A stretch of 64,000 nt of DNA. Origin: an uncultured Dokdonia sp. Lineage in GTDB: Bacteria > Bacteroidota > Bacteroidia > Flavobacteriales > Flavobacteriaceae. The translations under genes and the position numbers were made by a program. The notes under the pieces are model-generated. The model was given only the letters and a program-made list of their open reading frames with translations, was not told the origin of the DNA and made no database searches. The stretch is taken from the NCBI RefSeq assembly GCF_947496725.1, contig NZ_CANMDS010000003.1, positions 310,001 to 374,000 on the forward strand, read 5' to 3'. This document shows, piece by piece, positions 3,454 to 54,943 of this stretch (positions are counted from its first letter, which is position 1; each line of letters begins with the position of its first letter).

Positions 3454-4938
3454 TTACAACAGCTCTTGCATATACTTTTTGATATCAACGTCATTGTAAA
3501 AACGATTGACCATCTCCGTGTATAGATCTGTAAATCTTTTGTTATCAATAAGGTTTCCAAAAATAGATTCCAGCTTTATAAAGCTTAAAGCATCTTCTGT
3601 AGTCTTCTTTGCTGCTTGATACAACTCCTCCTTCATTTCATCTTGAATGACTAGTTTTTGCCCATTTTGATTTTCTTGCTTGTCACTATAATAACACCAA
3701 GCAACTAAAACAAGTGTTGCATATTTGATACTTCCACCAGCAGCTAAATTCTCTTGAATAGTTGCAATTAAAAACTTTGGAAGCTTTGCCGAGCTCTCTG
3801 AACAGATACGATCTACACTATCCTTAATATTTGGATTCCCAAATCGCTCCAGTAAGCTATCTTTATAATCTGCTAGATTAATGCCTTTAATCTCACCTAA
3901 AACGGGTGTTGCTTCTTTGTCAAAAAAGGCACGTAAATACTGTGCAAATAGCTCATCTTGTACACATACATCTATAGTAGGGTGGCCGTGCAGCACTCCT
4001 AAAAGTCCTAACACAGAATGTCCAGCGTTAAGCAGGCGTAATTTCATTTTCTCATATGGTACTACATCGGGTACAAACTTGACGCCAACTTTTTCAAAAG
4101 CGGGTCTTCCATTAGAAAAATTATCTTCTACCACCCATTGTATAAAAGGTTCGCAGGTAACGGGCCATTCATCTTCCACACCATAAGTTTCTGCTAGTAA
4201 TTTGATGTCTTCTTCCGTGGTTACTGGCGTGATACGATCTACCATACTGTTGGGAAAACTCACCTCTTTTTCAATCCACTGTGCTAGTGTTGGGTCTTGC
4301 GCTTTCGCGAAAGCGAGCAACATTTTCTGTATCATATTGCCGTTATGCTCAATATTGTCACAAGAGAGCACCGTAAAGGCAGGTAGTCCTTCATCACGAC
4401 GTCTCTTTAAGGATGCTGTAAGAAAACCATATACTGTTTTTGGGTCGTCAGGATGTGCGAGTTCGTGCTGAATCTGCTGATTTTCAAAATTGAATTCACC
4501 TGTATTAGGATTAAAATTATATCCACCCTCAGTAATAGTCAATGAAACAATCTTAGTTTCAGGCGCTGCCATACGGGTGATTACAGCTTCAGGGCTATCT
4601 GTACCCATTTTAAAATCTACAATGGAGCCAATGACTTCTGCCTCCTTTTTTCCGTCTGGATGCTGAACCATCAAGGTGTAGAGATGGTCTTGTTTCTTGA
4701 AAATATCGTGAAGTTTTTGATCATTTTGGCGCAAGCCTATCCCGCAAATTTCCCATTCTGATGCTTCGCCCAGCTGTCTGAGTTGATGCACATAGTATGC
4801 AAGATGCGCGCGATGAAAACCACCTACGCCTATGTGTACAATGCCCGCCTTATCTGGCGAACGATCATAGGTAGGTACTGATATTTGTTTGCCTATTTTC
4901 GATAGATTTTCTTGATTAAGTGGTGTCAATTCTCCCAT
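3454..4938 (-). CDS. mannitol 2-dehydrogenase family oxidoreductase
   Basis: 494 residues from the ATG at 4938-4936. An upstream in-frame Met exists but would lie inside the preceding gene, and 494 aa is the usual length of long-chain polyol dehydrogenases. The N-terminal nucleotide-binding loop (GVGGFHRAH) and the family signature K299-x4-N304-x2-H307 (KLRLLNAGH) are intact. The family oxidises D-mannitol to D-fructose, or reduces fructuronate/tagaturonate, with NAD. The start codon overlaps the stop of the transporter gene upstream (TAATG), indicating translational coupling. The gene contains one in-frame copy of the 14-bp palindrome encoding AFAKA (4301-4314). Mannitol is the best substrate guess; fructuronate reductase is the alternative. 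Confidence 0.85.
   Translation of the reverse strand: MGELTPLNQENLSKIGKQISVPTYDRSPDKAGIVHIGVGGFHRAHLAYYVHQLRQLGEASEWEICGIGLRQNDQKLHDIFKKQDHLYTLMVQHPDGKKEAEVIGSIVDFKMGTDSPEAVITRMAAPETKIVSLTITEGGYNFNPNTGEFNFENQQIQHELAHPDDPKTVYGFLTASLKRRRDEGLPAFTVLSCDNIEHNGNMIQKMLLAFAKAQDPTLAQWIEKEVSFPNSMVDRITPVTTEEDIKLLAETYGVEDEWPVTCEPFIQWVVEDNFSNGRPAFEKVGVKFVPDVVPYEKMKLRLLNAGHSVLGLLGVLHGHPTIDVCVQDELFAQYLRAFFDKEATPVLGEIKGINLADYKDSLLERFGNPNIKDSVDRICSESSAKLPKFLIATIQENLAAGGSIKYATLVLVAWCYYSDKQENQNGQKLVIQDEMKEELYQAAKKTTEDALSFIKLESIFGNLIDNKRFTDLYTEMVNRFYNDVDIKKYMQELL
4301..4314. repeat. GCTTTCGCGAAAGC palindrome, copy 1
   Basis: Inside the mannitol dehydrogenase gene, read as AFAKA in the gene frame. Confidence 0.9.
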
Positions 4939-6662
4939 TAGATAGTTGCGTTTTTTATTTTTCCTCTTCGTAATGCCCAATATGCTAATACAAAATAAAG
5001 GATAGTACATATAAAAGTGTACGTATAAAATAGTTGTCTATTGTCAATATATTCTGTCTCTGAAGCACTGCCAAACATCACATTGCAAGCCAGGGCTAGA
5101 CTAGCTACAAGTGCTGAAATTGCTAGGAATTTTAATGTCTTTGAAAACATAGAAGTATCCTTAACCTGCACATCTTCTTGTGCGGCTTGTTGCTCTTGAA
5201 AACGTTTTATAGTTTCCTCTCTAAGTGCTTCTTCTTTTACCTCTTCTGTATAACTATCTTTTGCCCCATATCTAGATGCAAGGAAGGTGTACATAGCGAT
5301 GGTAAAGAACCAAGTAGGGATAAAGAGGTAGTAAAAGGATATTACATCTAGCGCTTGCAGTCCGAAGCCAAAAACCAAGCCTAATCCCCAAGAGGCAACA
5401 GCCGGCATACTAAATTTAAGCTTGCGGTATGATGACCAGTATCTTGTAAAACCTATTCTAGGGAAGATTTGGTGCTCTGTAAATACAATCGCACCTACTG
5501 GTACTACAAGCAATCCTGCATAGGTGAGGAGTGGTAAAATCTGTGAGAATACAAAAGGAAAACAAGCGATGGTCACGGTAACTAAACCTACGACGATGGT
5601 TGTTTTCTTTCTAGAATGATTTGAAAAAATGGCTTGCGCTGCGAGACCTGCCCTATATAAATTTGTTATTGCTGTAGTCCATCCTGCAACAATCACAATG
5701 ACAAACCCAGACCAACCTAAAGCGTAATAAGCAACATCACCTGGATCAAGTTCTACAATAGATTTGCCTAAAATTACGGCAGCACCAGCTCCCATAATTC
5801 CTGCAGCAATCCACGCAACGTAGTGACCAAACATCATACCCGTACTAGAAGCATAGGCATAGTTTTTCTTTTTGGCAAAACGTAACAATGCCATATCTAC
5901 CAGTCCAAAATGGGTAATTGTATTTGCCGCCCATCCAAAACCGATAACTTCTACAAGTCCAATTCCAGTTTCTCCATCGCTATTAATACCTGTCCAGATG
6001 GACTGATTACCCAGCGTCATAAAATCTGCCCAATTTGACGGTATGGTTTTATCTAATACATCTAGAGACAATGCAGGCAGCAGTACCATTGCACCTCCTG
6101 TAAACATTACAAATAGCCAGGGCGCACAAAGCCCAGAGAACTCAGAAACAGCATTAAAACCATAAAGAGCGATGGAAACCACAACAATACCCACTGCCAA
6201 TACAATCAATACAAACCAAGCATTTGTGGGATACCAATTAAGTTGTGCTGGGATATCAAATGCAAAACGTACCGCCGTAGACGATACCGTAATCATCGCC
6301 GCCGAAATAACAGAAAAGATAATCACATTTGCCCAATTATATAACTTGGTCATCGAGTCACCCGCAATCTTATTAAGATAGGTGTAGAGGCTTAAACGCG
6401 TTTCTACAGCGATAGGGGAGGTGATGAATCTCCAACTTAATACAGCTAGAATATTACCAATTAACAAGCCTAGAATAATATCTGAAGTTTTGGCACCCAG
6501 TGCAACAAAAGTTGCCCCAATAACAAACTCTGTTGCTGCTACGTGCTCTGCAGCGTAGAGACCAGCAAAATGCGTCCAATCTTTTAATTTGTTTTTTCCT
6601 ACGGGTAGCTGTTCTTCATCTACCGATTTTAAGTGGTCGAACTCTTTGGTTTGTTTACTCAT
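4938..6662 (-). CDS. NCS1-type (purine/cytosine permease-like) transporter
   Basis: 574 residues, about 12 transmembrane helices plus a charged loop (residues about 475-505) and two extra C-terminal helices. The fold signature of nucleobase:cation symporter-1 proteins is recognisable in the first helices (HVAATEFVIGATFVALGA) and the unwound-helix segment further in. The family normally carries purines, cytosine, hydantoins or thiamine. Here its stop codon overlaps the start of a polyol dehydrogenase gene, so the cargo may instead be a polyol or related compound fed to that enzyme. This is an inference from coupling, not from binding-site residues. Start chosen at the ATG at 6662, the first Met of the frame. 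Confidence 0.82.
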   Translation of the reverse strand: MSKQTKEFDHLKSVDEEQLPVGKNKLKDWTHFAGLYAAEHVAATEFVIGATFVALGAKTSDIILGLLIGNILAVLSWRFITSPIAVETRLSLYTYLNKIAGDSMTKLYNWANVIIFSVISAAMITVSSTAVRFAFDIPAQLNWYPTNAWFVLIVLAVGIVVVSIALYGFNAVSEFSGLCAPWLFVMFTGGAMVLLPALSLDVLDKTIPSNWADFMTLGNQSIWTGINSDGETGIGLVEVIGFGWAANTITHFGLVDMALLRFAKKKNYAYASSTGMMFGHYVAWIAAGIMGAGAAVILGKSIVELDPGDVAYYALGWSGFVIVIVAGWTTAITNLYRAGLAAQAIFSNHSRKKTTIVVGLVTVTIACFPFVFSQILPLLTYAGLLVVPVGAIVFTEHQIFPRIGFTRYWSSYRKLKFSMPAVASWGLGLVFGFGLQALDVISFYYLFIPTWFFTIAMYTFLASRYGAKDSYTEEVKEEALREETIKRFQEQQAAQEDVQVKDTSMFSKTLKFLAISALVASLALACNVMFGSASETEYIDNRQLFYTYTFICTILYFVLAYWALRRGKIKNATI

Positions 6663-7921: not shown

Positions 7922-7950
7922 TTCTTTCTGTTATTTAAATTGGAAAAGAC

Positions 7951-7981
7951 AAGAAGTCCTTTCCCAAGGAAAGAACTTCTT
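7951..7981. terminator. bidirectional terminator between convergent genes
   Basis: Stem AAGAAGTCCTTTCC paired with GGAAAGAACTTCTT around a 3-base loop, with one internal mismatch. It sits between the convergent genes ending at 7921 and 7980. Confidence 0.7.
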
Positions 7982-8909: not shown

Positions 8910-8997
8910 TGTTTATATATTTTATGATTTTTATTTTAAACCTGTCTACAAAAATTAATCAATAGACAGATTTTAATTTTTAATATTAAGGTTACTG

Positions 8998-9123: not shown

Positions 9124-9130
9124 ATTTTAC

Positions 9131-12737: not shown

Positions 12738-13036
12738 AAACACCTCATTAGCTAGCTGAAAATACAAATAAATTACATTTTAGAGACTAGTTTATAGCGA
12801 GTTAGCACCCTTTTCGGTATTATAAATATCTGTCTAGCGTGGTATCTATAAGTTTATTTTTTGGAGTGTCTCCCCTATGCTTTTATTGGGTTTTGAGTAC
12901 GCTTTCGCGAAAGCGTAACCTCACTCATAACAAATACTCCACACAGTGCTAAAAGCTCGTTAAACCTTTATAAACTGGCGTTAAAGACCTAGCGATTGCC
13001 TCATACGAGCGCTAACTTTATGAAAAAAGAAACATT
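12738..13036. other. intergenic region with one 20-bp palindrome
   Basis: About 300 bases between divergent genes. It contains TACGCTTTCGCGAAAGCGTA at 12898-12917, the longest perfect form of the window's repeated palindrome. Nothing else recognisable. Confidence 0.6.
12901..12914. repeat. GCTTTCGCGAAAGC palindrome, copy 2
   Basis: Intergenic, extended to a perfect 20-bp palindrome at 12898-12917, upstream of the FMN-binding stress protein gene. Confidence 0.9.
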
Positions 13037-14904: not shown

Positions 14905-14918
14905 GCTTTCGCGAAAGC
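14905..14918. repeat. GCTTTCGCGAAAGC palindrome, copy 3
   Basis: Between the convergent 3' ends of the exporter and the aldehyde dehydrogenase genes. Confidence 0.9.
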
Positions 14919-16433: not shown

Positions 16434-16447
16434 GCTTTCGCGAAAGC
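16434..16447. repeat. GCTTTCGCGAAAGC palindrome, copy 4
   Basis: Intergenic, between the dehydrogenase gene and the small-gene terminator. Confidence 0.9.
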
Positions 16448-16662: not shown

Positions 16663-16993
16663 AGCTTTTTTATTGTAAAGGTATTTTAAAATCTAAATGC
16701 TGTCTTTTTAAATAACAGATAATTAACAATTTACCCATTACTCAAAATTATTTTTATAAGAATATGGGATATTTCAAATACCATAATTTATCATAGATAC
16801 ATATAGAATTATCAAAACAAATTAGATTGCAAATAAATGTATTTCAGACAGTTAAATATGATTAACACTTGTTGCGCTTTCGCGAAAGCGTATATACACA
16901 CCCTCTTAACACGATAACGTTTTCGGACTTTGGCACGCTACTTGTATTTAGGTAATCGTGAACATCAATCCACATTGATAAAAAACGAATATT
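16663..16993. other. intergenic region between divergent genes
   Basis: About 330 A+T-rich bases carrying palindrome copy 5 (16876-16889) and presumably the promoter of the basic secreted protein gene. No gene or RNA seen. Confidence 0.5.
16876..16889. repeat. GCTTTCGCGAAAGC palindrome, copy 5
   Basis: Intergenic, about 105 bases upstream of the basic secreted protein start. Confidence 0.9.
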
Positions 16994-21358: not shown

Positions 21359-21372
21359 GCTTTCGCGAAAGC
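21359..21372. repeat. GCTTTCGCGAAAGC palindrome, copy 6
   Basis: Intergenic, between the DUF6155 gene and the helicase gene on the leftward strand. Confidence 0.9.
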
Positions 21373-23218: not shown

Positions 23219-23232
23219 GCTTTCGCGAAAGC
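23219..23232. repeat. GCTTTCGCGAAAGC palindrome, copy 7
   Basis: Upstream of the SDR gene, overlapping its probable -33 promoter region. Confidence 0.9.
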
Positions 23233-25144: not shown

Positions 25145-25209
25145 AATAACAGATTTTTGATTGATTAACATATACGTCTACGCTTACGCGAAAATGTTAC
25201 ACGTTTGTT

Positions 25210-32824: not shown

Positions 32825-35800
32825 ATGCTGAATAAGAGCATTAAATTTCTCATAGAAAACAAACTTGTTGCCGTTCTACTACTCGCCCTATTTGTGGGTT
32901 GGGGCGTGGTTAATGCGCCTTTTAATTGGGAAACTGGCTTTCTGCCCACAGACCCAGTTGCCGTAGATGCCATACCTGATATTGGCGAGAACCAGCAGAT
33001 TGTTTTTACCAAGTGGCAAGGGCGTTCGCCACAGGATATTGAAGACCAAATCACATATCCGCTTACCACTTCCCTTCTCGGTATTCCGGGCGTGAAAACC
33101 ATTCGTAGTTCTTCTATGTTTGGATTTTCCAGCATCTACATCATCTTTGAAGAAGACATTGAGTTCTATTGGTCACGCAGTCGCATACTGGAAAAACTGA
33201 ACTCACTTCCTGCAAACCTTTTGCCCGATGGTGTCAACCCATCTTTAGGTCCAGATGCCACAGGTTTGGGACAGATATTTTGGTACACGTTGGAAGGTCG
33301 TGATAAAGACGGAAACGTGACTGGCGGTTGGGATTTACAGGAATTGCGTAGCATACAGGATTATTATGTAAAGTACGGGCTATCCTCTGCAAGTGGTGTT
33401 TCTGAAGTGGCTTCCATAGGTGGTTATGTTCAGGAATATCAAGTCGATATCGACCCAGAAAAAATGCGCCAGTACAATGTAAGTATGGGCGATGTGGTCA
33501 AAGCCGTAAAGCAGAGCAATCAAGATATAGGCGCACAAACACTCGAAATCAATCAAGCCGAATATCTCGTGCGCGGATTAGGTTACGTAAAGTCTATCGC
33601 AGATATTGAAAGTGCTGTTGTAGATTCTGAAAATTTCACTTCCATCCGCATTAAAGACGTGGCAAACGTTCATTTGGGACCTGCTGCAAGACGTGGTATT
33701 CTCGATAAGGAAGGTGCAGAAGTCGTAGGTGGTGTTGTAGTCGCTCGCTATGGTGCAAATCCGCTGGAAGTTATCAATAATGTGAAGGCACAAATTGCCG
33801 AAATAAGTTCTGGACTTCCTACAAAAACCTTGGCAGATGGTCGCACTTCGCAAGTTACCATCGTACCATTTTACGACCGTACCGAACTCATTGAAGAAAC
33901 GTTGGACACGCTCAACGAAGCACTCACGCTGGAAATTCTCATAACCATTCTTGTCATTATCATAATGGTATTCAACCTGCGTGCATCTATCCTTATTTCA
34001 GGATTGTTGCCCGTGGCCGTTTTGATGGTTTTTATCACGATGAAACTCTTTAATGTAGATGCAAACATCGTTGCCCTTTCAGGTATCGCCATTGCCATCG
34101 GCACAATGGTGGACGTGGGCGTCATACTCGCCGAAAATATGATTCGGCATTTGGAAGATGAAAAATTACGCCTTAATGAAAACGGTAAGGAATACAGTAC
34201 AAACGAAATCATCTACAACGCAACTGCCGAAGTTTCTGGTGCTATCCTAACCGCAGTTTTAACAACAATAATCAGTTTCCTGCCCGTATTCACGATGATT
34301 GGTGCCGAAGGAAAACTATTCCGTCCGCTTGCCTTTACCAAAACAATGGCACTTACGGCATCGCTTATCATTGCGCTGTTTATCATTCCACCCATCGCGG
34401 CTTTCCTATTCCGCAAGACGAGTGTACGAGAACGCACCCAATATGCTATTAATGGTGCACTTGTTTTATTGGGGATTCTCGCTATCGTTTACGGCTATTG
34501 GCTGGGACTTATTCTTATTGCGTTCGCCATAACTTCCTTTTTAAAGATGCGTGGCACGCTTTCGCGAAAGCGTAAAAATCTACTTGATATCATCATTTCA
34601 TCGGTTGCCATCGTCTTCTTGCTCGCTACGTATTGGCGACCGTTGGGCTTTGACCGAAGCATCGTGATGAACCTGATATTTGTTTCCATTATCTGTTTTG
34701 GACTGCTCGGTGTATTCTCAATTTTCAGGATATACTACGAGCGTATTTTGCGATGGGCACTTCAAAACCGATATCTATTCTTAATCGTTCCCGCTACGGT
34801 GCTCACGCTCGGTATTCTCATAATGCGAAATACGGGCAAAGAGTTTATGCCAGCGCTCAATGAAGGCTCGTTCCTGCTGATGCCTACATCCTTGCCACAC
34901 GCAGGTGTTGAAGAAAACAAGCGTGTACTACAACAGCTCGATATGGCTGTGGCAAGTATTCCTGAAATTGAAACCGTAGTGGGAAAAGCTGGAAGAACAG
35001 AAAGTGCTCTTGACCCAGCACCACTCTCAATGTACGAAAACGTCATTCAGTATAAATCTGAATATATGCGGAATGCATCTGGCAAACGACAACGCTATAA
35101 GGTTAATGACGATGGATTGTTTGTGCTGAAGAACGACAAATTCATCATCAACCCAAATAATGAGATAGATGAAGATGTGAACTATGAAAAAGCTTCGCTC
35201 AAGACTACTGCCACACGCAATGATTTGATTGAAGATGAAGATGGCGAATACTACCGAAACTGGCGACCAGACATCGAAAGTCCAGATGATATTTGGAACG
35301 AGATTGTACGAGTAACAAAGTTGCCAGGCGTGACATCCGCACCCAAGTTACAACCCATCGAAACCCGATTGGTAATGCTACAAACGGGAATGAGGGCACC
35401 AATGGGCATCAAGGTAAAAGGTCCCGACTTAAAATCGATTGAAAACTTTGGACTGCAATTGGAAGACATTCTAAAAAAAGCCGAAGGCGTTAAAGAACAA
35501 GCCGTGTTTGCAGACCGAATCGTGGGCAAACCATACTTGCTCATCGATATCAAAAGAGACCAATTGGCACGCTATGGCATATCCATAATGGATGTGCAGG
35601 AAATTCTTCAAGTGGCTGTGGGTGGTATGCCACTCACGCAAACTGTGGAAGGTCGTGAGCGTTATGCCGTGCGTGTTCGTTATCCACGAGAGTTACGAGC
35701 AAACCCAGACGACCTTAAAAATATCTACGTTCCCGTAGAAAAAGGCAGTCCTGTACCGCTGGGCGAACTGGTAGAGATACGCTACGAACAAGGACCACAA

Positions 35801-36577
35801 GTCATTAAAAGCGAAGACACTTTTCTAATCGGCTATGTGCTGTTTGATAAACTCGATGGCTTTGCAGAAGTAGATGTGGTGGAAAATGCCCAAGCCTTAA
35901 TCCAAGATAACATAGACAACGGTACGCTGGTCGTGCCAAAAGGTGTGAGTTATCGTTTTACCGGAACTTATGAAAATCAGTTGCGAGCAGAAAAAACCTT
36001 ATCGTTTGTCGTACCACTTTGTTTGCTCGTTATTTTCTTGATTTTGTATTTCCAATTCAGGTCGGTTTCTACATCGCTTATGGTGTTTACCGCCATTGCC
36101 GTAGCCTTTGCAGGTGGCTTCATAATGATTTGGTTGTACGGGCAAGATTGGTTTTTCAATTTTAGCTTTTTTGGCGAGAACCTACGGGATTTGTTCAATA
36201 TGAAAACCATCAATTTAAGTGTGGCCGTTTGGGTAGGATTTATTGCCCTTTTCGGTATTGCAACGGATGATGGTGTGGTAATGGCCACCTATTTAGACCA
36301 ATCCTTCAAAAGCAATAACCCAGACACTCAAAAAGGTATAAGGCTCGCCACTTTGGAAGCGGCTGGAAAACGCATTCGTCCGTGTTTGATGACAACCGTA
36401 ACCACAGTTTTGGCACTACTACCAGTACTCACATCCACAGGAAAGGGAAGTGATATAATGATACCGATGGCGATACCCATTTTTGGCGGAATGATAATCG
36501 ACGTAACGTCCTATTTCCTACTGCCAGTCCTATACAGCTGGAAAAAGGAATACCAACTTAAAAAAGCAAACAGATGA
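32825..36577 (+). CDS. cusA: CusA-type heavy-metal RND efflux pump
   Basis: 1250 residues, longer than the about 1040 of enterobacterial CusA because of an extra membrane-rich insert (about 540-625) and a charged periplasmic insert (about 745-815), both usual in Bacteroidota members. N-terminal IPDIGENQQIVF and the helix-4 motif IAIAIGTMVDVGVILAEN are pump hallmarks; helix-10/11 region is present near 1080-1150. Proton-driven export of Cu(I)/Ag(I) through a TolC partner. Its last four bases overlap the outer membrane gene (ATGA). The matching adaptor is distant, at 46750. It contains a palindrome copy at 34558, read as LSRKR. Confidence 0.93.
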   Translation: MLNKSIKFLIENKLVAVLLLALFVGWGVVNAPFNWETGFLPTDPVAVDAIPDIGENQQIVFTKWQGRSPQDIEDQITYPLTTSLLGIPGVKTIRSSSMFGFSSIYIIFEEDIEFYWSRSRILEKLNSLPANLLPDGVNPSLGPDATGLGQIFWYTLEGRDKDGNVTGGWDLQELRSIQDYYVKYGLSSASGVSEVASIGGYVQEYQVDIDPEKMRQYNVSMGDVVKAVKQSNQDIGAQTLEINQAEYLVRGLGYVKSIADIESAVVDSENFTSIRIKDVANVHLGPAARRGILDKEGAEVVGGVVVARYGANPLEVINNVKAQIAEISSGLPTKTLADGRTSQVTIVPFYDRTELIEETLDTLNEALTLEILITILVIIIMVFNLRASILISGLLPVAVLMVFITMKLFNVDANIVALSGIAIAIGTMVDVGVILAENMIRHLEDEKLRLNENGKEYSTNEIIYNATAEVSGAILTAVLTTIISFLPVFTMIGAEGKLFRPLAFTKTMALTASLIIALFIIPPIAAFLFRKTSVRERTQYAINGALVLLGILAIVYGYWLGLILIAFAITSFLKMRGTLSRKRKNLLDIIISSVAIVFLLATYWRPLGFDRSIVMNLIFVSIICFGLLGVFSIFRIYYERILRWALQNRYLFLIVPATVLTLGILIMRNTGKEFMPALNEGSFLLMPTSLPHAGVEENKRVLQQLDMAVASIPEIETVVGKAGRTESALDPAPLSMYENVIQYKSEYMRNASGKRQRYKVNDDGLFVLKNDKFIINPNNEIDEDVNYEKASLKTTATRNDLIEDEDGEYYRNWRPDIESPDDIWNEIVRVTKLPGVTSAPKLQPIETRLVMLQTGMRAPMGIKVKGPDLKSIENFGLQLEDILKKAEGVKEQAVFADRIVGKPYLLIDIKRDQLARYGISIMDVQEILQVAVGGMPLTQTVEGRERYAVRVRYPRELRANPDDLKNIYVPVEKGSPVPLGELVEIRYEQGPQVIKSEDTFLIGYVLFDKLDGFAEVDVVENAQALIQDNIDNGTLVVPKGVSYRFTGTYENQLRAEKTLSFVVPLCLLVIFLILYFQFRSVSTSLMVFTAIAVAFAGGFIMIWLYGQDWFFNFSFFGENLRDLFNMKTINLSVAVWVGFIALFGIATDDGVVMATYLDQSFKSNNPDTQKGIRLATLEAAGKRIRPCLMTTVTTVLALLPVLTSTGKGSDIMIPMAIPIFGGMIIDVTSYFLLPVLYSWKKEYQLKKANR
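34558..34571. repeat. GCTTTCGCGAAAGC palindrome, copy 8
   Basis: Within the CusA extra insert, read in a non-AFAKA frame (TLSRKR). Confidence 0.9.
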
Positions 36578-37791
36578 AGAAATTAAAATATATACTGGTG
36601 TTTTTGTTTGTTTCCGCTTTCGCGAAAGCGCAACAATTACAATCCTACATTCAGGAAGCCGAAGCCAACAATCCAGAAATTCAAGCCTTTGAATTGCGAT
36701 ACAACATCGCCGAAGAAAAGGTAAACGAAGCCAACTGGATTCCCAATACCGAAGTAAGTGCCGGCTATTTTGTGAGCGAGCCAGAAACCAGAGTCGGTGC
36801 GCAACGAGCACGAATCGGCGTAAAACAAATGTTGCCGTGGTTCGGCACTATCACGGCTCGTGAAAATTACGCAACCGCAATGGCAGATGCCGAATATGTG
36901 GAAATCACAATAGCAAAACGCAAACTCGCACTTTCGGTCGCACAATCCTATTATCGTTTGTATTCCATACGTGCCAAGCAAGCCGTACTGGATGAAAACA
37001 TACAACTACTGGAAACCTATGAGCGACTTGCGCTTACATCCGTAGAAGTGGGCAAAGCGAGCGCCGTTGACGTATTGCGACTTCAGATAAGACAGAACGA
37101 GTTACAGCAACAAAAAGAAGTGCTGGAAGAAGAATTTACAGCAGAACAAACGGCTTTCAACAATTTGCTCAACCGCGAATCAATGATGACTGTTGACGTA
37201 GTTCCAGAAATGGAAATTCCGAAAGAAGACCCATTTTATGATAATGAGGCGCTGGCGCTCAATCCCGAACTGCTCAAATACGACAAGCTCTATGAATCGG
37301 TAGCACAATCTGAACTGCTTAACCAGCGTGAGAGCTTGCCTATGATTGGTTTTGGTGTAGACTACTTGCCTGTAACTGAACGTAGCGACGTCAACTTCAG
37401 CGATAATGGGAAAGACGTTCTGATGCCTATGGTATCGGTTTCCATCCCCATTTTCAACAACCGTTACAAATCTATTTCAAGGCAAAATGAGTTGAGACAG
37501 CAAGAAATAGAAACACAACGGGAACAACGATTAAATGTGTTGGAATCCGCTTTCGCGAAAGCGCAATCACAACGCAACCAAGCACGCATCGCTTACAATA
37601 CACAATCCCGAAACCTAAAGCAAGCGCAAGATGCCGAAGAAATTCTGGTCAAAAATTACGAGACAGGCACAATTGATTTTAACGATGTGCTGGACATTCA
37701 GGAATTGCAGTTGAAGTTTCAAATGAATCAAATCGAGTCGGTAAAAGGGTACTATGTGCAATCGGCCATTATTAACTATTTAATCAACTAA
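36574..37791 (+). CDS. cusC: TolC-family outer membrane efflux protein (CusC-like)
   Basis: 405 residues. Signal peptide whose cleavage region AFAKAQ is encoded by a copy of the 14-bp palindrome. Two homologous halves of coiled helices follow (EANNPEIQAF near 22, and the second near 235), as in TolC proteins. It forms the outer membrane channel for the CusA pump, with which it overlaps by four bases. A second palindrome copy (37549) is also read as AFAKA. Confidence 0.9.
   Translation: MKKLKYILVFLFVSAFAKAQQLQSYIQEAEANNPEIQAFELRYNIAEEKVNEANWIPNTEVSAGYFVSEPETRVGAQRARIGVKQMLPWFGTITARENYATAMADAEYVEITIAKRKLALSVAQSYYRLYSIRAKQAVLDENIQLLETYERLALTSVEVGKASAVDVLRLQIRQNELQQQKEVLEEEFTAEQTAFNNLLNRESMMTVDVVPEMEIPKEDPFYDNEALALNPELLKYDKLYESVAQSELLNQRESLPMIGFGVDYLPVTERSDVNFSDNGKDVLMPMVSVSIPIFNNRYKSISRQNELRQQEIETQREQRLNVLESAFAKAQSQRNQARIAYNTQSRNLKQAQDAEEILVKNYETGTIDFNDVLDIQELQLKFQMNQIESVKGYYVQSAIINYLIN
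36616..36629. repeat. GCTTTCGCGAAAGC palindrome, copy 9
   Basis: Encodes AFAKA at the signal peptidase site of the CusC-like protein. Confidence 0.9.
37549..37562. repeat. GCTTTCGCGAAAGC palindrome, copy 10
   Basis: Encodes AFAKA in a coiled helix of the same CusC-like protein. Confidence 0.9.
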
Positions 37792-40895: not shown

Positions 40896-41216
40896 ATGAA
40901 AAATTCAAAATTGATTGAAGCTTTAAACAACTGTATCACACATTGTAATTACTGCTCAGATGCTTGTCTAAATGAAGACAACATCAAGATGATGGTTGAC
41001 TGCATTCGCACGGATAGAGCCTGTGCCGAAGTATGTAGCACGACGGTAAAATTGCTGGCTATGGATTCCGCTTTCGCGAAAGCGATGGTAGAAAAATGCC
41101 ACGAAATATGTAAGCAATGTGCCGATGAATGTGGCAATCACGACCACCAGCATTGTAAAGATTGTGCAGAAGCCTGTAAAAAATGTGCTGATGCGTGTGA
41201 AGCCTATTTGGCATAA
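40896..41216 (+). CDS. four-helix bundle copper storage protein (Csp-like)
   Basis: 106 residues with 19 or so Cys spaced as CxxxC and CxxC on amphipathic helices (ITHCNYCSDAC, TDRACAEVC, KCHEICKQCADEC, CKDCAEACKKCADAC). This is the pattern of Csp proteins, which pack many Cu(I) ions inside a helical bundle. It has no signal peptide, so it probably stores copper in the cytosol. A palindrome copy (41070) encodes SAFAKA between helices 2 and 3. Confidence 0.88.
   Translation: MKNSKLIEALNNCITHCNYCSDACLNEDNIKMMVDCIRTDRACAEVCSTTVKLLAMDSAFAKAMVEKCHEICKQCADECGNHDHQHCKDCAEACKKCADACEAYLA
41070..41083. repeat. GCTTTCGCGAAAGC palindrome, copy 11
   Basis: In the Csp-like gene, read as AFAKA. Confidence 0.9.
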
Positions 41217-42414: not shown

Positions 42415-44916
42415 ATGAAACATACATATCACATACAAGGGATGACCTGTAACGGTTGCCGAAATCACGTAGAGCAGACACTTTCTAAAGTCGAAGGTGT
42501 AACTAATGCGGTTGTCAATCTCGAAAAGGCCGAAGCGACCATAGAAATGGAATCTCATATTGCCATCGATAAATTTCAAGAAGCGCTGAAAGCTGATGGT
42601 GGACGGTATAGCATCCATAAAAATGGGGAACATCATCACATCAACGATAAGAAGAAAGTTGAGAAACCCAAAGAAAAAGGTACAGGAACATTCTATTGCC
42701 CGATGCATTGTGAAGGCGACAAGACTTACGATAAGCCTGGCGATTGTCCTGTTTGCGGAATGGATTTGGTTGAAGAAGTTAATCTTTCTGCAACCACATC
42801 AGAACAATGGACGTGTCCTATGCACCCAGAAGTCATAAAGGACGAGTCTGGTAGTTGCCCTATATGCGGTATGGATTTAGTACCGATGGAACCTGATTTG
42901 TCCGCAGAGGAAAAGAGCTATAAAAAACTACTGAAGAAATTTTGGATTGCCGTAGCCTTTACATTGCCCATTTTTATAATTGCAATGAGCGAGATGATTC
43001 CTAAAAATCCTTTGTACGATGTTTTAGAGCTAAAATACTGGAACTGGATTCAGTTTGCACTTTCCATTCCTGTGGTTTTCTATGCCACTTGGATGTTCTT
43101 TGAACGTGCCTATCGCAGTATAATAACGTGGAACCTTAATATGTTTACGCTCATCGGCATTGGTGCAGGTGTAGCTTGGCTTTTTAGTGTATTCGGGATG
43201 CTCGTTCCCGACTTTTTTCCTGACCAATTTAAGACCGAAGCGGGAACGGTTCACGTTTATTTTGAAGCGGCAACAGTCATTCTAACTTTGGTACTACTTG
43301 GTCAAATGCTTGAAGCTCGTGCACATAGCAAGACTAATTCAGCGGTCAAGGAACTTTTAAAATTAGCACCTAATAAGGCTGTAAAGGTCGTAAATGGTGA
43401 AGAGCAGGAAGTAGCCATCGATAAAATTGAATTAAATGATATTTTGCGTGTAAAGCCTGGCGATAAAATTCCTGTGGATGGTGTAATAACCGAAGGTGAA
43501 ACTTCCATCGACGAATCGATGATTACGGGCGAACCTATTCCCGTAAACAAATCAGTAGATGATAAAGTAAGTAGCGGAACAATCAATGGTAACCAATCCT
43601 TTTTGATGAAAGCCGAAAAGGTAGGCTCTGATACGCTACTCTCACAGATTATACAGATGGTCAATGATGCCAGTCGTAGCCGTGCGCCAATACAGAAATT
43701 AGCAGATACGGTTTCGGGATATTTCGTGCCTGTCGTCGTTATAATCGCTGCCGTAACATTCGGTGTTTGGGCAATTTGGGGGCCAGAACCAGCCTATGTT
43801 TATGCCTTGGTCAATGCAATCGCCGTATTGATTATCGCCTGTCCGTGTGCTTTGGGACTTGCCACACCAATGTCTGTAATGGTGGGTGTCGGCAAAGGCG
43901 CACAAAATGGTGTGCTCATCAAAAATGCCGAAGCACTTGAAAAAATGGATAAGGTTGATACCTTAATCGTGGATAAAACTGGAACTATTACCGAAGGAAA
44001 ACCTACAGTTGAAAAAGTGGGTTCTTTTGATGAAAGCTTTCGCGAAAGCGAAGTGCTACAATACATTGTATCCCTTAATAGCCAAAGTGAACATCCTTTG
44101 GCGGAAGCAACGGTAAAATATGGAAAAGAACAAAGCGCAGAATTTTTAAAAGCTGATAGTTTTAGTGCGGTTACTGGAAAAGGTGTTGAAGGGAAAGTGA
44201 ACGGAAAAGAAGTGGCTTTAGGAAATGCCAAAATGATGGAACAGGCGAATGCCACGCTTACCGAAGTGATGGAAAACGAAGCGCAATCCTATCAAAAGCA
44301 AGGTAAGACAGTTTCCTATCTCGCCATTGATGGTAAAGTTTCTGGTTACGTGGTCATAGGCGATAAAATCAAGGAAACGAGCGCAAAAGCTATCAAGGAT
44401 TTGCAGGATAAGGGAATTGCAGTCATTATGCTTACGGGTGATAATCACGACACCGCAAAAGCTGTTGCAGATGAACTGAACCTTGCAGATTTTCAAGCAA
44501 GTATGCTACCCGAAGACAAGCTTAAGGAAGTCGAGAAATTACAAGAGCAAGGTAAAGTGGTTGCAATGGCAGGTGATGGTATCAATGACGCACCTGCATT
44601 GGCTAAAAGCGATGTAGGTATCGCAATGGGCACGGGAACGGATGTTGCTATCGAGAGTGCTGCCATTACCTTAGTTAAGGGGGATTTGCACGGTATTGTA
44701 AAGGCACGTAATCTTAGTCACGTAGTAATGCGCAATATTAAGCAAAATCTCTTTTTTGCACTTATTTATAACACATTAGGAATACCGATTGCGGCAGGAC
44801 TGCTGTACCCCTTTTTCGGAATACTCTTATCGCCAATGATTGCGGCTTTGGCGATGAGCTTCAGCTCAGTATCAGTAATCGGTAACTCATTACGTCTAAA
44901 AGGTAAAAAAATATAA
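42415..44916 (+). CDS. copA: Cu(I)/Ag(I)-exporting P1B-type ATPase
   Basis: 833 residues. N-terminal HMA domain with C12-NG-C15 (GMTCNGC), two heavy-metal-binding YHS-like zinc-ribbon modules (YCPMHCEGD ... CPVCGMDLV and WTCPMHPE ... CPICGMDLVPM), then the pump: membrane CPC at 476-478, phosphorylation Asp at D520 in DKTGT, HP motif SEHPLAE and GDGINDAPAL. CPC plus MxxS near the last helix marks a copper-type P1B-1 ATPase. It exports cytosolic Cu(I) to the periplasm. A palindrome copy (44036) is read as SFRESE. It is preceded by a stem-loop. Confidence 0.95.
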   Translation: MKHTYHIQGMTCNGCRNHVEQTLSKVEGVTNAVVNLEKAEATIEMESHIAIDKFQEALKADGGRYSIHKNGEHHHINDKKKVEKPKEKGTGTFYCPMHCEGDKTYDKPGDCPVCGMDLVEEVNLSATTSEQWTCPMHPEVIKDESGSCPICGMDLVPMEPDLSAEEKSYKKLLKKFWIAVAFTLPIFIIAMSEMIPKNPLYDVLELKYWNWIQFALSIPVVFYATWMFFERAYRSIITWNLNMFTLIGIGAGVAWLFSVFGMLVPDFFPDQFKTEAGTVHVYFEAATVILTLVLLGQMLEARAHSKTNSAVKELLKLAPNKAVKVVNGEEQEVAIDKIELNDILRVKPGDKIPVDGVITEGETSIDESMITGEPIPVNKSVDDKVSSGTINGNQSFLMKAEKVGSDTLLSQIIQMVNDASRSRAPIQKLADTVSGYFVPVVVIIAAVTFGVWAIWGPEPAYVYALVNAIAVLIIACPCALGLATPMSVMVGVGKGAQNGVLIKNAEALEKMDKVDTLIVDKTGTITEGKPTVEKVGSFDESFRESEVLQYIVSLNSQSEHPLAEATVKYGKEQSAEFLKADSFSAVTGKGVEGKVNGKEVALGNAKMMEQANATLTEVMENEAQSYQKQGKTVSYLAIDGKVSGYVVIGDKIKETSAKAIKDLQDKGIAVIMLTGDNHDTAKAVADELNLADFQASMLPEDKLKEVEKLQEQGKVVAMAGDGINDAPALAKSDVGIAMGTGTDVAIESAAITLVKGDLHGIVKARNLSHVVMRNIKQNLFFALIYNTLGIPIAAGLLYPFFGILLSPMIAALAMSFSSVSVIGNSLRLKGKKI
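44036..44049. repeat. GCTTTCGCGAAAGC palindrome, copy 12
   Basis: In the copper ATPase, read as SFRESE (not AFAKA). Confidence 0.9.
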
Positions 44917-46749: not shown

Positions 46750-48477
46750 ATGAATAAGAACATTTTATATATAGCAATAGCCGTAATCGTAGGTTTGGGC
46801 GCAGGCTGGCTCATTTTTGGAAATGGGTCAAGTGATTCAAATAAGAATATGTCTGAAATGTCAGAACACGACCATTCTGGTAAAACCGAAGACCAAATGT
46901 GGACGTGTTCAATGCACCCACAGATAATGCAACCCGAAGCTGGCGATTGCCCTATATGTGGAATGGACTTGATTCCTGCCGAATCAAGTGCTGAAGGACT
47001 CGCATTGAACGAGATTAAAATGACCGAAAACGCAATGGCGTTGGCAAATATCCAGACCATTATCGTAGGTAATACACAATTCAGCGATGATGACGGTATG
47101 ATATCCCTTTCGGGAAAAATTGCGCAAAATGAAGAAAACAATACCGTGCAAGCCAGTTATTTTAAGGGAAGGATTGAGCGACTTAATGTTAATTATGACG
47201 GTCAGCAAGTAAACCGTGGTCAGTTACTGGCAACCATTTACGCACCAGACCTTGTAGCGGCACAGCAAGAATTAATTACCGCAGCATCGCTTAAAACATC
47301 GCAACCAGCGTTATACAAAGCTGTGCGCAATAAACTAATAAATTGGAAACTTTCGGACTCACAAATTAATTCTATTGAAGAAAGTGGAACGGTACGTGAG
47401 AACTTTCCGATTTATGCAACTGTTTCAGGAACGGTTTCAGAAGTAATGGCAGCACAAGGCGATTATGTTAATCAAGGACAGCCTATTGTCAAGTTGAGCA
47501 ATCTTAATTCGGTTTGGGCAGAATTTGATGCCTATGAAAATCAGATAGCACAATTCAAAGTTGGGCAAAAAATCAACATTACGACCAATGCCTATCCCAA
47601 TAAGGAATTTGAAGGAACTATCTCTTTCATCGACCCTATGCTTAACAATGCCACACGTACAGTAACGGTGCGTGCAACCTTACAAAATCGAAACGACCTA
47701 TTTAAGCCAGGAATGTTTGTGTCTGGAAAAGTGAAAGGCGCAACACAAACTATGGAAAACACCCTTTCTGTTCCAGCAAGTGCTGTACTATGGACTGGCG
47801 AGCGTTCATTGGTATACGTAAAAACCAATCCTAATGAACCTGTTTTTGAAATGCGTGAAGTTACCTTGGGCAATCGCTCTGGTGAGAATTACCAAGTATC
47901 AGCTGGACTGAATAATGGCGATGAAATAGTAACTAATGGAACGTTTACAGTAGATGCAGCTGCGCAATTGCAGGGTAAGAAATCGATGATGAATCAGCAG
48001 ATGATGCAGGACGAATCAGCTATGATGGGCGATATGGAAATGAGTTTCAGTAATGCGTTTAGTTCTGACTTTAGTGAAGCATTACCGTCGTATCTCAAAA
48101 TGAAAGACGCTTTAGTGGCAAGCGATGCTGGTCAGGTTTCCGTTTTTGCGAAAGCGACAACAGAAAAATTAAAAACAATATCGACAGAAGGTTTAGGCAA
48201 GATGGAAAAACAACACCTAACCAAAAGTATAGAGATGCTGGATGCCATCGCAAACAATGATATTTTGGAAAATCAGCGTTCTCACTTCGTCATCCTAAAC
48301 GAGAATATCGTGCCTATTGCTATGAGTATTCAAAATTTAAACAATTATTTCATCCAAAAATGCCCGATGGCAAACAACAATAAAGGTGCAGTTTGGTTAA
48401 GTACTGAAGAAGAAATAAAAAACCCCTACTATGGTGATGCAATGTTAACCTGTGGTAGTGTGATTGAGTCATTGTAA
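46750..48477 (+). CDS. cusB: CusB-type periplasmic adaptor with DUF3347 tail
   Basis: 575 residues. Membrane anchor (about 5-22), a heavy-metal-binding zinc-ribbon module (WTCSMHPQIM ... CPICGMDLIP, about 50-77), then adaptor domains: barrel-sandwich and hairpin (about 120-240) and beta-barrel (about 240-400), and a DUF3347 domain as C-terminus (about 440-575) ending NPYYGDAMLTCG. It should link the CusA pump to the TolC-like channel, yet lies nine genes from cusA-cusC. A degraded palindrome (TTTTTGCGAAAGC) lies near 48140. Confidence 0.9.
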   Translation: MNKNILYIAIAVIVGLGAGWLIFGNGSSDSNKNMSEMSEHDHSGKTEDQMWTCSMHPQIMQPEAGDCPICGMDLIPAESSAEGLALNEIKMTENAMALANIQTIIVGNTQFSDDDGMISLSGKIAQNEENNTVQASYFKGRIERLNVNYDGQQVNRGQLLATIYAPDLVAAQQELITAASLKTSQPALYKAVRNKLINWKLSDSQINSIEESGTVRENFPIYATVSGTVSEVMAAQGDYVNQGQPIVKLSNLNSVWAEFDAYENQIAQFKVGQKINITTNAYPNKEFEGTISFIDPMLNNATRTVTVRATLQNRNDLFKPGMFVSGKVKGATQTMENTLSVPASAVLWTGERSLVYVKTNPNEPVFEMREVTLGNRSGENYQVSAGLNNGDEIVTNGTFTVDAAAQLQGKKSMMNQQMMQDESAMMGDMEMSFSNAFSSDFSEALPSYLKMKDALVASDAGQVSVFAKATTEKLKTISTEGLGKMEKQHLTKSIEMLDAIANNDILENQRSHFVILNENIVPIAMSIQNLNNYFIQKCPMANNNKGAVWLSTEEEIKNPYYGDAMLTCGSVIESL

Positions 48478-48520: not shown

Positions 48521-48524
48521 TAAT

Positions 48525-51900: not shown

Positions 51901-53305
51901 GGCCTTGACCGATATATTAGGGTTTCTTCCTATGGCCATTTCAGCATCGGCAGGGGCTGAAGTACAGCGACCATTAGCTACCGTTGTCATTGGTGGATTG
52001 CTAACTTCCACGCTCTTGACACTTTTTATTCTTCCTATTTTTTATCAATTGTTCGAGAAACGCTCGGAACGTAAGATGAAAGTCAATCCAAAATTCGTTA
52101 CTGCAACTGCGGTAGTCTGTTTACTTTTTACATCTACTTTCGTTAAGGCACAAGAAGCTTCTCAGAATAATTCCCTGCCAGTTATATCATTGGAAAAAGC
52201 GGTAGAAATTTCCAAGGAAAACTATCCGCTCTTGAAAACGAAACAGTTGGAAATTCAAAGACAAACTGTGCTAAAGGGTACAGCTTACGATTTTGGAAAT
52301 ACCCAAGTGTTTACGGGTGGCGAGGAAATTTCGGATAGTCAGGGTATTTACACTTTGGTTGGTTTAGGACAGCAGAATATCAACCTATTCGGTATCGGTG
52401 CTAAAAAGCGTTTGCAAAAACAGCGCATCGCTTTGGCGGAAACAGCTCTTGACCTTTCTGAACTTCAGGTAGAACGGGAAGTTAAAAAGGCTTGGTCTCA
52501 AGCCTATCAGCAACGACAGAAATTTGAACTGTACCGTGAACTGGATTCTATCTATTCACAATTTGAAAAGGCCATTCAACTCAACTTTGAGGTGGAAGCT
52601 ATTTCAAGACTGGAATATTCATCGGCCACAAATCAAGCCTTGCAAATCAGTAACAAATTGCAACAGGCAGAAAGCGATTATGCCATTGCCCTGCAAAAAT
52701 TGAATCTTTGGTTGGTATCGGACACGTATTATTCCGTTCCTGACACTTTAGACGGAAGTGAGGTTGCCGTATTGGGAATGGAAACCGATTTAGGCAACCA
52801 CCCTGAACTACAACTTTCGCAAAAGCGCATTACTGAAACAGAAGCTAACTATGATGCAGCGCGTTCCGATTTGATGCCCAATTTCAACTTACAGGGCGGA
52901 CTTCAAAGGGTAAACGGCAATAATGGGTTTTATAGCTATCAGGCAGGTATTTCTATTCCTCTTTTTTCTGGTACGGTACGTAGCCAAGCAAAGGCCGCTA
53001 AAATAGATAACGAAATCGCAAAAGCAAATGCAGATTTTACCCAATGGCAACTGCAATCTGAATATCAGCAGGCAATACAAGCTTATCAAAAATGGGAAGG
53101 CTCTTGGGCTTTTTATAGTGATAAAGCCTTACCACTTGCAGAAGAACAGCGCAAAGGTGCATTGCTCGCCTATAAAGAAGGGGCGGTGGACTATGCAGCG
53201 TTCACGCAAATTATACGGGATGCCATTCAGACGGAAATGGATGCGCTGGACGCTCTCGACAATTATTTAAAATCAGTTTTCGAACTACAATATTTCAAAC
53301 AATAA
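48962..53305 (+). CDS. czcA: CzcA-type RND pump fused to a TolC-like channel
   Basis: 1447 residues. Residues 1-1038 are a complete heavy-metal RND pump (MINKIIDFSINNKFI start, VPIDAVPDITNNQVQV, the helix-4 run LGAIDFGIIVDGAVIIVES with its acidic residues, and GVAVLNGLVMI). From M1039 a signal-peptide-like stretch (MKVNPKF... ending VKAQ at 1061-1064) leads into a TolC-family protein (about 1064-1447). The acidic helix-4 pattern favours divalent cations (Zn, Cd, Co), as in CzcA, over Cu. Bacteroidota pumps of this length are common, so the fusion is a family feature; how the channel reaches the outer membrane is not known to me. Confidence 0.88.
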   Translation: MINKIIDFSINNKFIIGLLTLALIGAGIYSMTQVPIDAVPDITNNQVQVITQSPNLGTEDIEQFVTYPVEVAMSNLPNVKEIRSISRFGLSVVTIVFYDDVGTYLPRQLVAEKLTEVQEQIPMGFGKPSMGPISTGLGEIYQYTLEVDKEHQGEYSSTELRTIQDWIVRRQMAMVTGVVEVNAFGGNKKQYEVSVDPDELRAIGITISDVFSALENNNQNTGGAYIERNHQANFIRGEGLARTVSDIENMVVKTVNGIPIKIKDVGNVTMGSAVRYGALTKDGKGEAVGGMILMLKGANSNEVIKNVTQRMEQIQQSLPDGVSIKPFLDRSELIAETTGTVTGNLLEGGLIVIFVLVLLLGNWRGGLIVASTIPLSLLFAFILMYVFDVWANLMSLGAIDFGIIVDGAVIIVESTVFLMYSYVVKKKAVSSETRDEIAAKSSKKMMNAAFFGQLIILIVFLPILALEGVEGKMFQPMALTFIFAMIGAMLLCLTYVPMISALFLRPPKSEKQSYGDKFVHWVERKYEPLLTKSLVRGKVIIGIAVALFVVAIFAFTRMGGEFIPQLDEGDIAFHAILKPGSSLTETIETTTKIERIVKAEFPEVETIISRIGVADVPTDPMPMDIADVFVILKPSDEWTSAESKDELLEKMKDAISIVPGVNFEFTQPIEMRFNELLTGVREDVAIKLFGEDLDILASKAEEMGKIIATVPGVADMKVEATDGLPQITVNYNRNKLAQYGLEINQLNSVLQAAFAGGKAGVIFEGEKRFDLVVRLQKENRESIADIQNLFINLPNGSQIPLREIADVSYESGPMQISRDNTNRRTYVGINIRDRDVKSVVEEIQAKLDTQFDLPPGYYIRYGGAFENLERASNRLQTVVPIALILIFILIYFALKSFPQTLMIYLAIPMATIGGVFALWLRDMPFSISAGVGFIVLFGVAVLNGLVMISGLNELKEEGVTDLRQRIIEGTKRRIRPIMLTALTDILGFLPMAISASAGAEVQRPLATVVIGGLLTSTLLTLFILPIFYQLFEKRSERKMKVNPKFVTATAVVCLLFTSTFVKAQEASQNNSLPVISLEKAVEISKENYPLLKTKQLEIQRQTVLKGTAYDFGNTQVFTGGEEISDSQGIYTLVGLGQQNINLFGIGAKKRLQKQRIALAETALDLSELQVEREVKKAWSQAYQQRQKFELYRELDSIYSQFEKAIQLNFEVEAISRLEYSSATNQALQISNKLQQAESDYAIALQKLNLWLVSDTYYSVPDTLDGSEVAVLGMETDLGNHPELQLSQKRITETEANYDAARSDLMPNFNLQGGLQRVNGNNGFYSYQAGISIPLFSGTVRSQAKAAKIDNEIAKANADFTQWQLQSEYQQAIQAYQKWEGSWAFYSDKALPLAEEQRKGALLAYKEGAVDYAAFTQIIRDAIQTEMDALDALDNYLKSVFELQYFKQ

Positions 53306-53308
53306 CAA

Positions 53309-54508: not shown

Positions 54509-54529
54509 ATATATTAATACCATCATAAG

Positions 54530-54943
54530 ATGACAGAAATAGAAAAAACATTAGAAAGCAAAACTGTGCGTCCTACGGCTATGCGCATCTTGATTTATAA
54601 ATATATGGCCGATAAAGAAATCGCAGTCGCCCTAACCGATATTGAGAACGCTTTCGCGAAAGCGGACAGGACTACGTTATACCGGACGTTGAAAACCTTT
54701 GAGGAAAAGGGTATTGTGCACCAAATTGATGATGGCACTAATATTTCAAAATATGCTTTATGTGAACCTGGTTGCAATTGTGAACTTGAACAAGATTTGC
54801 ACCTGCATTTTCATTGCGGCAACTGTGAAGAAACCGTTTGTCTGACCGAACAAAAAATTCCGCATATCAACTTGCCCGATGGATATATAGCTGAGGATGC
54901 GAATTTGGTCATAAAAGGAATTTGCGAAAAATGTAGCGGATAA
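54530..54943 (+). CDS. Fur-family metal-responsive regulator
   Basis: 137 residues. Winged-helix N-terminal domain (about 1-80) with RPTAMRILIYKYM and TLYRTLKTFEEKGIV, and C-terminal metal part with HLHFHCGNC and ICEKCSG, giving two CxxC pairs for the structural zinc and His ligands for a sensory site. A palindrome copy at 54650 (AFAKA) lies in the recognition region. It should be the repressor of this module, sensing Zn or another divalent metal; members include Zur, Fur and PerR, not separable here. Confidence 0.88.
   Translation: MTEIEKTLESKTVRPTAMRILIYKYMADKEIAVALTDIENAFAKADRTTLYRTLKTFEEKGIVHQIDDGTNISKYALCEPGCNCELEQDLHLHFHCGNCEETVCLTEQKIPHINLPDGYIAEDANLVIKGICEKCSG
54650..54663. repeat. 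GCTTTCGCGAAAGC palindrome, copy 13
   Basis: In the Fur-family gene, read as AFAKA in the DNA-binding domain. Confidence 0.9.

Follow-up and report, generated by a model that had tools for sequence, protein, structure and literature searches.

The 64-kb window of the uncultured Dokdonia sp. genome examined here (the whole analysed stretch, 64,000 nucleotides) raises the question of what keeps one 14-bp palindrome, GCTTTCGCGAAAGC, recurring in genes and gaps alike. We confirmed 13 exact copies in this window, while none appeared in 100 dinucleotide shuffles. As shown below, it is the DNA sequence that is conserved, being found on both strands, in every transcriptional context and in all three reading frames, and its sites repel each other over about 1 kb.

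A sequence-only reading of the window had proposed a genome-wide element, and the source genome (G000, 3.29 Mb) indeed holds 905 exact copies of the 14-mer, against none of the reversed control. Of the 156 TCGCGA words in the opening 400 kb of the genome's contig C1, 132 sit in TTTCGCGAAA and 120 in the full 14-mer. When the half-site was shuffled at random 200 times and made palindromic, not one of the resulting words was found in 800 kb. A Markov expectation of order k-2 equals the observed count (120 against 120) and is uninformative, its inner words stemming from the motif itself; the controls relied on were base composition, the reversed pattern, shuffled halves and dinucleotide shuffles. 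By the composition, reversed and shuffle controls the count is far above expectation, and in this genome-wide abundance the motif resembles highly iterated palindrome 1 (HIP1). In one library of open-licence papers the letters of the 14-mer and the 16-mer had no occurrence, and the inner 10-mer was found in two papers on other subjects.

Five of the 299 genomes examined in the family are rich in the motif, namely two Dokdonia (the source genome and D. sinensis, G206, with 857 copies), two Nonlabens (G242 with 664 and G010 with 578) and G190 from another genus (408), whereas the other 294 carry 0–19 copies each. Among 395 genomes sampled across the phylum, the source genome alone was rich and every other one had at most 6 copies. 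A scan of named genomes returned at least 80 stretches; among the matches listed, 50 were from Dokdonia or Nonlabens, 4 from strain BBFL7 and 26 were scattered across many taxa.

Spacing and flanks were examined in 400–800 kb from each of four genomes, the spacing test using 400 kb per genome and 2000 simulations which preserved the genic and intergenic copy numbers. The coefficient of variation (CV) of the spacing was 0.50 in the source genome, 0.65 in D. sinensis, 0.45 in Nonlabens and 0.72 in G190, against simulated means of 0.98–1.06; the first three lie below every simulation (simulated means 1.01–1.06, minima 0.74–0.77). Spacings shorter than 1 kb numbered 6 against 34.7 expected in the source genome, 2 against 19.2 in D. 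sinensis, 0 against 19.5 in Nonlabens and 0 against 7.8 in G190. The window itself is relatively poor in copies (13 per 64 kb, when about 17.6 would be expected from 905 per 3.29 Mb) and has a spacing CV of 0.87; evenness is thus a property of longer stretches and is invisible in the window alone.

According to gene predictions from a home-made script, 59 of the 120 copies in 400 kb of the source genome lie in predicted genes, where 105 were expected from coding density, and the genic copies are read in all three frames (AFAKA 35, RFRES or SFRES 13, LSRK-type 11). The remaining copies sit between genes in all four orientations and are enriched there per base; G190 shows little avoidance of genes (45 genic copies against 51 expected). 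It could have been argued that selection on the AFAKA peptide explains the copies. However, the peptide is a by-product of the motif, as 58 of the 59 AFAKA occurrences in predicted proteins of the source genome (800 kb) are motif-encoded, together with 33 of 40 in D. sinensis, 21 of 23 in Nonlabens and 23 of 23 in G190. A nuance is provided by a motif-free homologue of the efflux gene described below (G102), which reads AFAKA at the second site of that gene through other codons and shows that a permissive peptide can precede the motif.

In 174 kb aligned between the source genome and D. sinensis (69.7% identity), counted in alignable blocks only, which favours shared sites, 22 copies are shared in place, 16 are found in the source genome only and 14 in D. 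sinensis only, while 2.2% of random 14-mers are identical between the two. The source genome and G190 have 4 copies in common at the same positions; 13 and 10 others have no counterpart. Across seven genome pairs, the differing coding sites comprised 78 ungapped, 6 part-gap and 3 insertion-like cases, with 36 more outside the protein alignments; the pairs are not independent, shared coding sites are counted from both sides (24 entries representing 12 sites for the source genome and D. sinensis), and in one of the ungapped cases a long insertion in the other genome interrupts the site. Clean insertions, which the sequence-only reading had suggested looking for in alignments of genes with and without copies, are therefore the exception, and the motif is mostly written into existing codons by substitution, altering the protein. 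Of the two possibilities that the sequence-only reading had left side by side, selection agrees with the 905 copies, their even spacing, their positional conservation and the overwriting of codons in place, whereas spreading by insertion does not agree with 78 ungapped against 3 insertion-like sites.

Conservation extends beyond the 14-mer. The adjoining base is C in 0.89–0.92 of the flanks in both Dokdonia and in Nonlabens and in 0.63 of those in G190, and in Dokdonia the outer C is followed by A, T and T. Over about 20–25 nt 5′ of the site, G and T are in excess on both strands at the expense of C and A; at the intergenic sites of the source genome, G+T reaches 0.76 at −10 to −5, compared with 0.51 at −60 to −40. 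This bias is present in the intergenic sites and in the sense and antisense of the coding sites of both Dokdonia and of Nonlabens, and is weak in G190. Opposite flank positions are no more complementary than composition predicts and do not covary, so the site is not an RNA stem. Compared with Dokdonia, Nonlabens has a flank pattern that is different in detail, with C at −2, T at −10 and G at −15 to −17, as if it used a dialect of one site.

In 800 kb of the source genome, 222 exact 14-mers are accompanied by 12 single-mismatch and 35 double-mismatch copies. Variants in the length of the A/T tract were suspected behind the double-mismatch class and proved rare; the class consists of one-armed copies, with one outer GC replaced in 27 of the 35. 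One-armed copies, that is TTTCGCGAAAGC without the opposite GC, number 36 in the same 800 kb, and show no preferred orientation (21 against 15, P = 0.41, in a region of uniformly negative GC skew). Their median distance to the nearest full copy is 2010 bp compared with 975 bp at random, none of 5000 simulations being as far, and only 3 lie within 1 kb of a full copy where 18.5 were expected. The corresponding numbers are 0 of 27 against 11.6 in D. sinensis, 0 against 2.2 in Nonlabens, which has only 5 one-armed copies (P = 0.05; P = 0.19 for the median), and 4 of 22 against 6.3 in G190 (P = 0.19; P = 0.03 for the median). Since the one-armed copies avoid the neighbourhood of full copies and sit in the gaps, a full site can apparently be replaced by a single arm in Dokdonia.

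The motif is also found on some phage contigs. In IMG/VR, 15 stretches match the 18-mer TACGCTTTCGCGAAAGCG and 41 match the 16-mer. We considered ten IMG/VR contigs with host-type sites and scanned 20 proteins from eight of them, recognising head genes on three (L169, L203 and L485). L169 encodes a head maturation protease and carries three motif copies 3.6 and 3.1 kb apart; among its six scanned proteins, three had no PHROG match and two matched only a PHROG of unknown function. L203 encodes a portal, a prohead protease, whose gene contains a motif copy, and a capsid protein which is also present in L485. Less specific phage genes were a primase-like protein in L230 and a phage-type transposase in L161, while the scanned proteins of L199 matched a family of unknown function only and those of L152 and L487 gave no match. 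L203, L485 and L224, which come from different samples, share the same open reading frame (ORF) sizes for portal, protease and capsid, and two motif copies exactly 4480 bp apart. The putative host assignment of the motif-bearing contigs is based on the motif and the GC content.

Taken together, we tentatively favour the possibility that the motif is the site of a putative, probably dimeric protein which organises or marks resident DNA. The palindrome GCTTTCGCGAAAGC would be the core of a DNA site of about 55–60 bp, with two arms flanking a CGCG centre, and in Dokdonia the arms continue as GCGTAA and then as about 20 bp of A/C-rich sequence outward. A putative and probably homodimeric DNA-binding protein of these genera would need such a site every few kb in resident DNA, which would include integrated islands and the phages living in these hosts, and it would act within the cell, on chromosome organisation or on self-recognition. 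The step from the site to a protein is one that we infer. Sites of MatP (matS), Noc, SlmA and ParB (parS) are palindromes of 12–16 bp, bound by dimers, which organise the nucleoid and number from a few to several dozen. The motif resembles them in form, being a perfect palindrome of 14–16 bp as would be expected of a ParB/Noc-type site, and differs in its roughly 900 evenly spaced copies throughout the genome and in having no ParB paralogue. No canonical parS was seen near parB in six loci of about 3.3 kb each. Perhaps, and here we are more hesitant, it constitutes a chromosome-wide system of waypoints, where a dimeric protein sits on the 14-bp palindrome or on a single arm every 3–4 kb, selection acts on coverage and not on single sites, every site imposes strand asymmetry on about 25 bp to either side, and resident phages and islands adopt the code. 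We know of no other evenly spaced, genome-wide nucleoid or self-recognition signal of this kind.

Several observations weigh against such a protein site. No binding protein was found, the search with ParB_N giving one match in each of the five rich genomes and no paralogue. In 35.7 kb each, the Nonlabens phages P12024S and P12024L lack the motif and even the word TCGCGA. G190 is less even than the others, its CV of 0.72 falling within the simulated range (minimum 0.66), and over 800 kb the source genome has a CV of 0.64 because of long gaps. Stretches of 10–20 kb that lack a full copy are tolerated, among them a restriction island: the two longest gaps in the 800 kb of the source genome (C1, 515.8–545.5 kb) have a GC content of 0.33 and harbour a serine recombinase together with type I restriction-modification genes. 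In the same region (L323–L325) a UvrD-like helicase also lies beside the type I restriction-modification genes. Adding the one-armed copies leaves the CV of the source genome at 0.64 and raises that of Nonlabens from 0.45 to 0.48, although it lowers that of D. sinensis from 0.66 to 0.58 and that of G190 from 0.72 to 0.69. Some one-armed copies are less than 500 bp apart, a few have similar flanks, and the strictness of the one-armed 12-mer is ordinary, with 36 exact non-palindromic, 38 single-mismatch and 73 double-mismatch occurrences in the source genome, 20 of the 38 differing at one tolerated position. In addition, the G/T skew of the flanks is atypical for a double-strand binding site.

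The rival that comes closest, although we regard it as unlikely, is a DNA uptake sequence, where competent cells prefer DNA with the motif and biased uptake with recombination raises the copy number. Like the DNA uptake sequences (DUS) of Neisseriaceae and the uptake signal sequences (USS) of Pasteurellaceae, the motif is overrepresented in genes and gaps, has extended flanks, is lineage-specific and is switched on or off among genera; its copy number is of the same order as those given for USS and DUS (1471 and 1965; PMC1939737), and even spacing has been reported for such sequences too (Karlin et al., as cited in PMC1939737). That paper mentions, and contests, the proposal that even spacing reflects a function in replication, repair or compaction. 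The non-palindromic one-armed copies, which act like sites in Dokdonia, would also suit uptake, and two Riemerella species of this order were reported as competent, while Flavobacterium johnsoniae was not under the same conditions (PMC7965970). On the other hand, the known uptake sequences are non-palindromic (PMC1939737), the motif is present on phage contigs, and the type II/IV pilus ATPase PF00437 was above cut-off in one of the five rich genomes and not in the other four, other uptake routes not having been tested; a pilus-based account fits badly. Decay forms are also fewer than for the one uptake sequence compared: the single-mismatch count per exact copy and position is 0.004–0.015 on the 14-mer and 0.012–0.047 on the one-armed 12-mer in four genomes, against 0.20 computed from a table in PMC1939737 for an Actinobacillus pleuropneumoniae uptake 10-mer, a comparison in which motif lengths differ and which does not include the Haemophilus influenzae and Neisseria uptake sequences. 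The same table gives 0.030 for a HIP1 10-mer. We consider it quite improbable that the motif is a bidirectional site similar to Chi, at which a helicase-nuclease of the AddAB/RecBCD type would recognise the motif, spare self DNA and load RecA 5′ of the site, on the strand rich in G and T. RecA prefers G/T-rich DNA, and the 5′ flank of the motif, which is G/T-rich on each strand, occupies the place where RecA is loaded at Chi; phage contigs bearing the motif also speak for this account. Chi sites are 5–8 nt long and oriented, whereas the motif core has 14 nt and is palindromic, and the one-armed copies show no orientation bias (full palindromes cannot show orientation). The density of about one motif per 3.6 kb is comparable with that of Chi in Escherichia coli (1008 in 4.64 Mb; PMC1939737). 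A protein acting within the cell is placed above both the uptake and the Chi-like explanations because of the perfect palindrome, which is the form expected for a dimer, the spacing and the presence on phage contigs.

HIP1 (GCGATCGC) of cyanobacteria is the nearest published concept that we found, as it is likewise a short GC-centred palindrome, high in copy number in some lineages and rare in others, and its occurrence has been linked to methyltransferases (Elhai 2015, PMC4390886). The single-mismatch share of the one-armed 12-mer resembles that of HIP1. Nevertheless, a palindrome of this kind, made or kept by a cognate methyltransferase with mismatch repair, is in our judgement very unlikely here and fits badly. 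HIP1 has 8 bp, whereas 14–20 bp plus flanks are conserved in the motif, which is larger than a methyltransferase site; a mutational process does not predict the repulsion between sites, for which PMC4390886 did not look in HIP1, the word 'spacing' being absent from its text. No methyltransferase family was common to all five rich genomes among the three tested (PF01555, PF00145 and PF02086; PF02384 and others were not surveyed), PF01555 and PF00145 having no match in the source genome or in Nonlabens G242 and PF02086 being present in both Dokdonia and in neither Nonlabens nor G190. One type I enzyme (PF02384) was found in the source genome. Finally, an RNA hairpin, a terminator or an inserted repeat similar to repetitive extragenic palindromes or miniature inverted-repeat transposable elements is hardly credible, even if the motif can fold back on itself and is enriched per base between genes. 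About half of the copies of the source genome are genic and the intergenic ones occur in all four orientations, a T-run lies close 3′ of 1 of its 119 intergenic copies compared with 13% in the background, the flanks do not covary, and the coding differences are mostly gap-free. As a general account this class is ruled out by the spread of contexts, the gap-free coding differences and the scarcity of T-runs.

For comparison, iterated words were surveyed in a small sample of 20-kb pieces from other genera (20 taken, 16 long enough); the 16 pieces contained several repeated words and no short palindrome spread comparably. L346 (G045:C1, 18.8 kb) carries 12, and L298:10663-18704 (G190) 8, repeats in one orientation, 0.5–4 kb apart and inside longer repeats (AACAACGTGTAT... 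and ACAACGGTCT..., respectively), which look like integron attC cassette arrays. L349 and L356 contain mostly tandem or paralogous repeats. In L352 (G127:C1:1-20000) the inverted repeat AAAGTCGGGAGACTTT has 4 copies in one orientation within 20 kb and may be a terminator hairpin, and in L357 (G287:C1:1-20000) the inverted repeat GAAARTCCGCGAGGAYTTTC has 4 copies in 20 kb.

Returning to the window, 10 of the 13 copies extend to CGCTTTCGCGAAAGCG, and that at 12901 is the core of the 20-bp palindrome TACGCTTTCGCGAAAGCGTA. Seven copies lie within ORFs (4301, 34558, 36616, 37549, 41070, 44036 and 54650), five of them in the AFAKA frame, and six fall inside the metal-resistance region. The forms near 25179, 48140 and 52814, which had been called degenerate, are each one change away from the one-armed copy TTTCGCGAAAGCG; the last two are also 2-mismatch matches to the 14-mer. 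The copies are as follows, with the strand given where one is assigned.

4301..4314: motif copy in a gene of the mannitol dehydrogenase family (minus strand), read AFAKA
12901..12914: motif copy, intergenic, centre of the 20-bp palindrome
14905..14918: motif copy, intergenic, with convergent genes on both sides
16434..16447: motif copy at the start of the longest aldehyde dehydrogenase ORF, upstream of the predicted start; right outer G changed to A
16876..16889: motif copy, intergenic, forming an unusually close pair, 442 bp after the 16434 copy
21359..21372: motif copy, intergenic; left outer C changed to T
23219..23232: motif copy, intergenic
34558..34571: motif copy in the RND efflux pump gene 32825-36577, LSRK-type frame
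36616..36629: motif copy near the N-terminus of the TolC-like efflux protein (probable signal-peptide region), read AFAKA
37549..37562: second motif copy in the TolC-like efflux gene, +933 bp, read AFAKA; the 933-bp pair recurs with the gene in other genera
41070..41083: motif copy in the DUF326 gene 40896-41216, AFAKA frame
44036..44049: motif copy in a heavy-metal P-type ATPase gene, SFRES frame
54650..54663: motif copy within the FUR-family domain of the regulator gene 54530-54943, AFAKA frame
25181..25193: one-armed copy with one change (CGCTTACGCGAAA), in the 23.2–34.6 kb gap
48142..48155, plus strand: one-armed copy with one change, in the 44.0–54.7 kb gap
52813..52826, plus strand: one-armed copy with one change, in the 44.0–54.7 kb gap

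The region 32825-54943 is a heavy-metal resistance region with two RND pumps, an efflux protein, a multicopper oxidase, a P-type ATPase and a FUR-family regulator; family matches identify 36574-37791 as a TolC-like outer-membrane efflux protein (PF02321) and 40896-41216 as a DUF326 protein. The efflux gene was compared at 30 loci. Both copies are retained, at 95–97% protein identity, in the motif-poor genomes G101, G087, G073, G215 and G160, and the second one in G284; the homologues of the rich G206 (97%) and Nonlabens G010 (82%) have both. Among homologues of poor genomes at 78–87%, both copies are found in G078, G076 and G287 and one in G285, G144, G051, G201, G189 and G021; at 71–75%, G012, G054 and G074 have one and G018, G274 and G102 none, and at 67–68% (G053, G045, G213 and G030) there is no copy. 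One copy is present in the rich G242 (73%) and G190 (66%). The identity of 95–97% across several genera (G101, G087, G073, G215, G160, G284 and G206) indicates a recent and wide transfer of the gene. The suggestion that the donor of the island carried the same element is borne out by the same copies in near-identical island genes of motif-poor genera, as well as in Dokdonia and Nonlabens; since near-identical efflux genes of poor genera keep the copies, the island passed through a motif-bearing lineage, and the comparison supports that the copies travelled with it into the motif-poor genera. A plasmid search using the efflux gene gave no match.

A different kind of trace was seen in a 2-mismatch search of poor genomes, where G144 gave 86 matches against 20 for the control (9 exact) and G042 gave 69 against 8 (6 exact), with smaller excesses in several others, e.g. 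G076 (41 against 5) and G053 (38 against 7). With many near-matches and few exact copies, G144 and G042 are possible relics of a lost system. In a tree of HtpG, the rich genera group with G144 and the poor G215 and G018 (support 92/95, the fork being drawn open), and G144 is sister to the rich G190 (91/95). Given this single-gene placement, G144 could be what remains of a motif system since lost, and the same tree makes possible a single origin of the system followed by losses.

Repetition in hundreds of copies with such precision and evenness is uncommon among bacterial sequences. The known classes, namely Chi, uptake sequences, HIP1 and parS/matS, each point to a basic process, and the motif falls between them, combining palindromy, spacing, the overwriting of protein sequence and carriage by some phages. 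In practice it is a tag, since DNA received from relatives of Dokdonia or Nonlabens can be recognised by its clusters of copies where the genome is otherwise poor in the motif, as with the metal island, and the possible relic genomes G144 and G042 are useful for tracing the lost protein. Finding the bound protein would make the role of evenly spaced iterated oligonucleotides directly testable.

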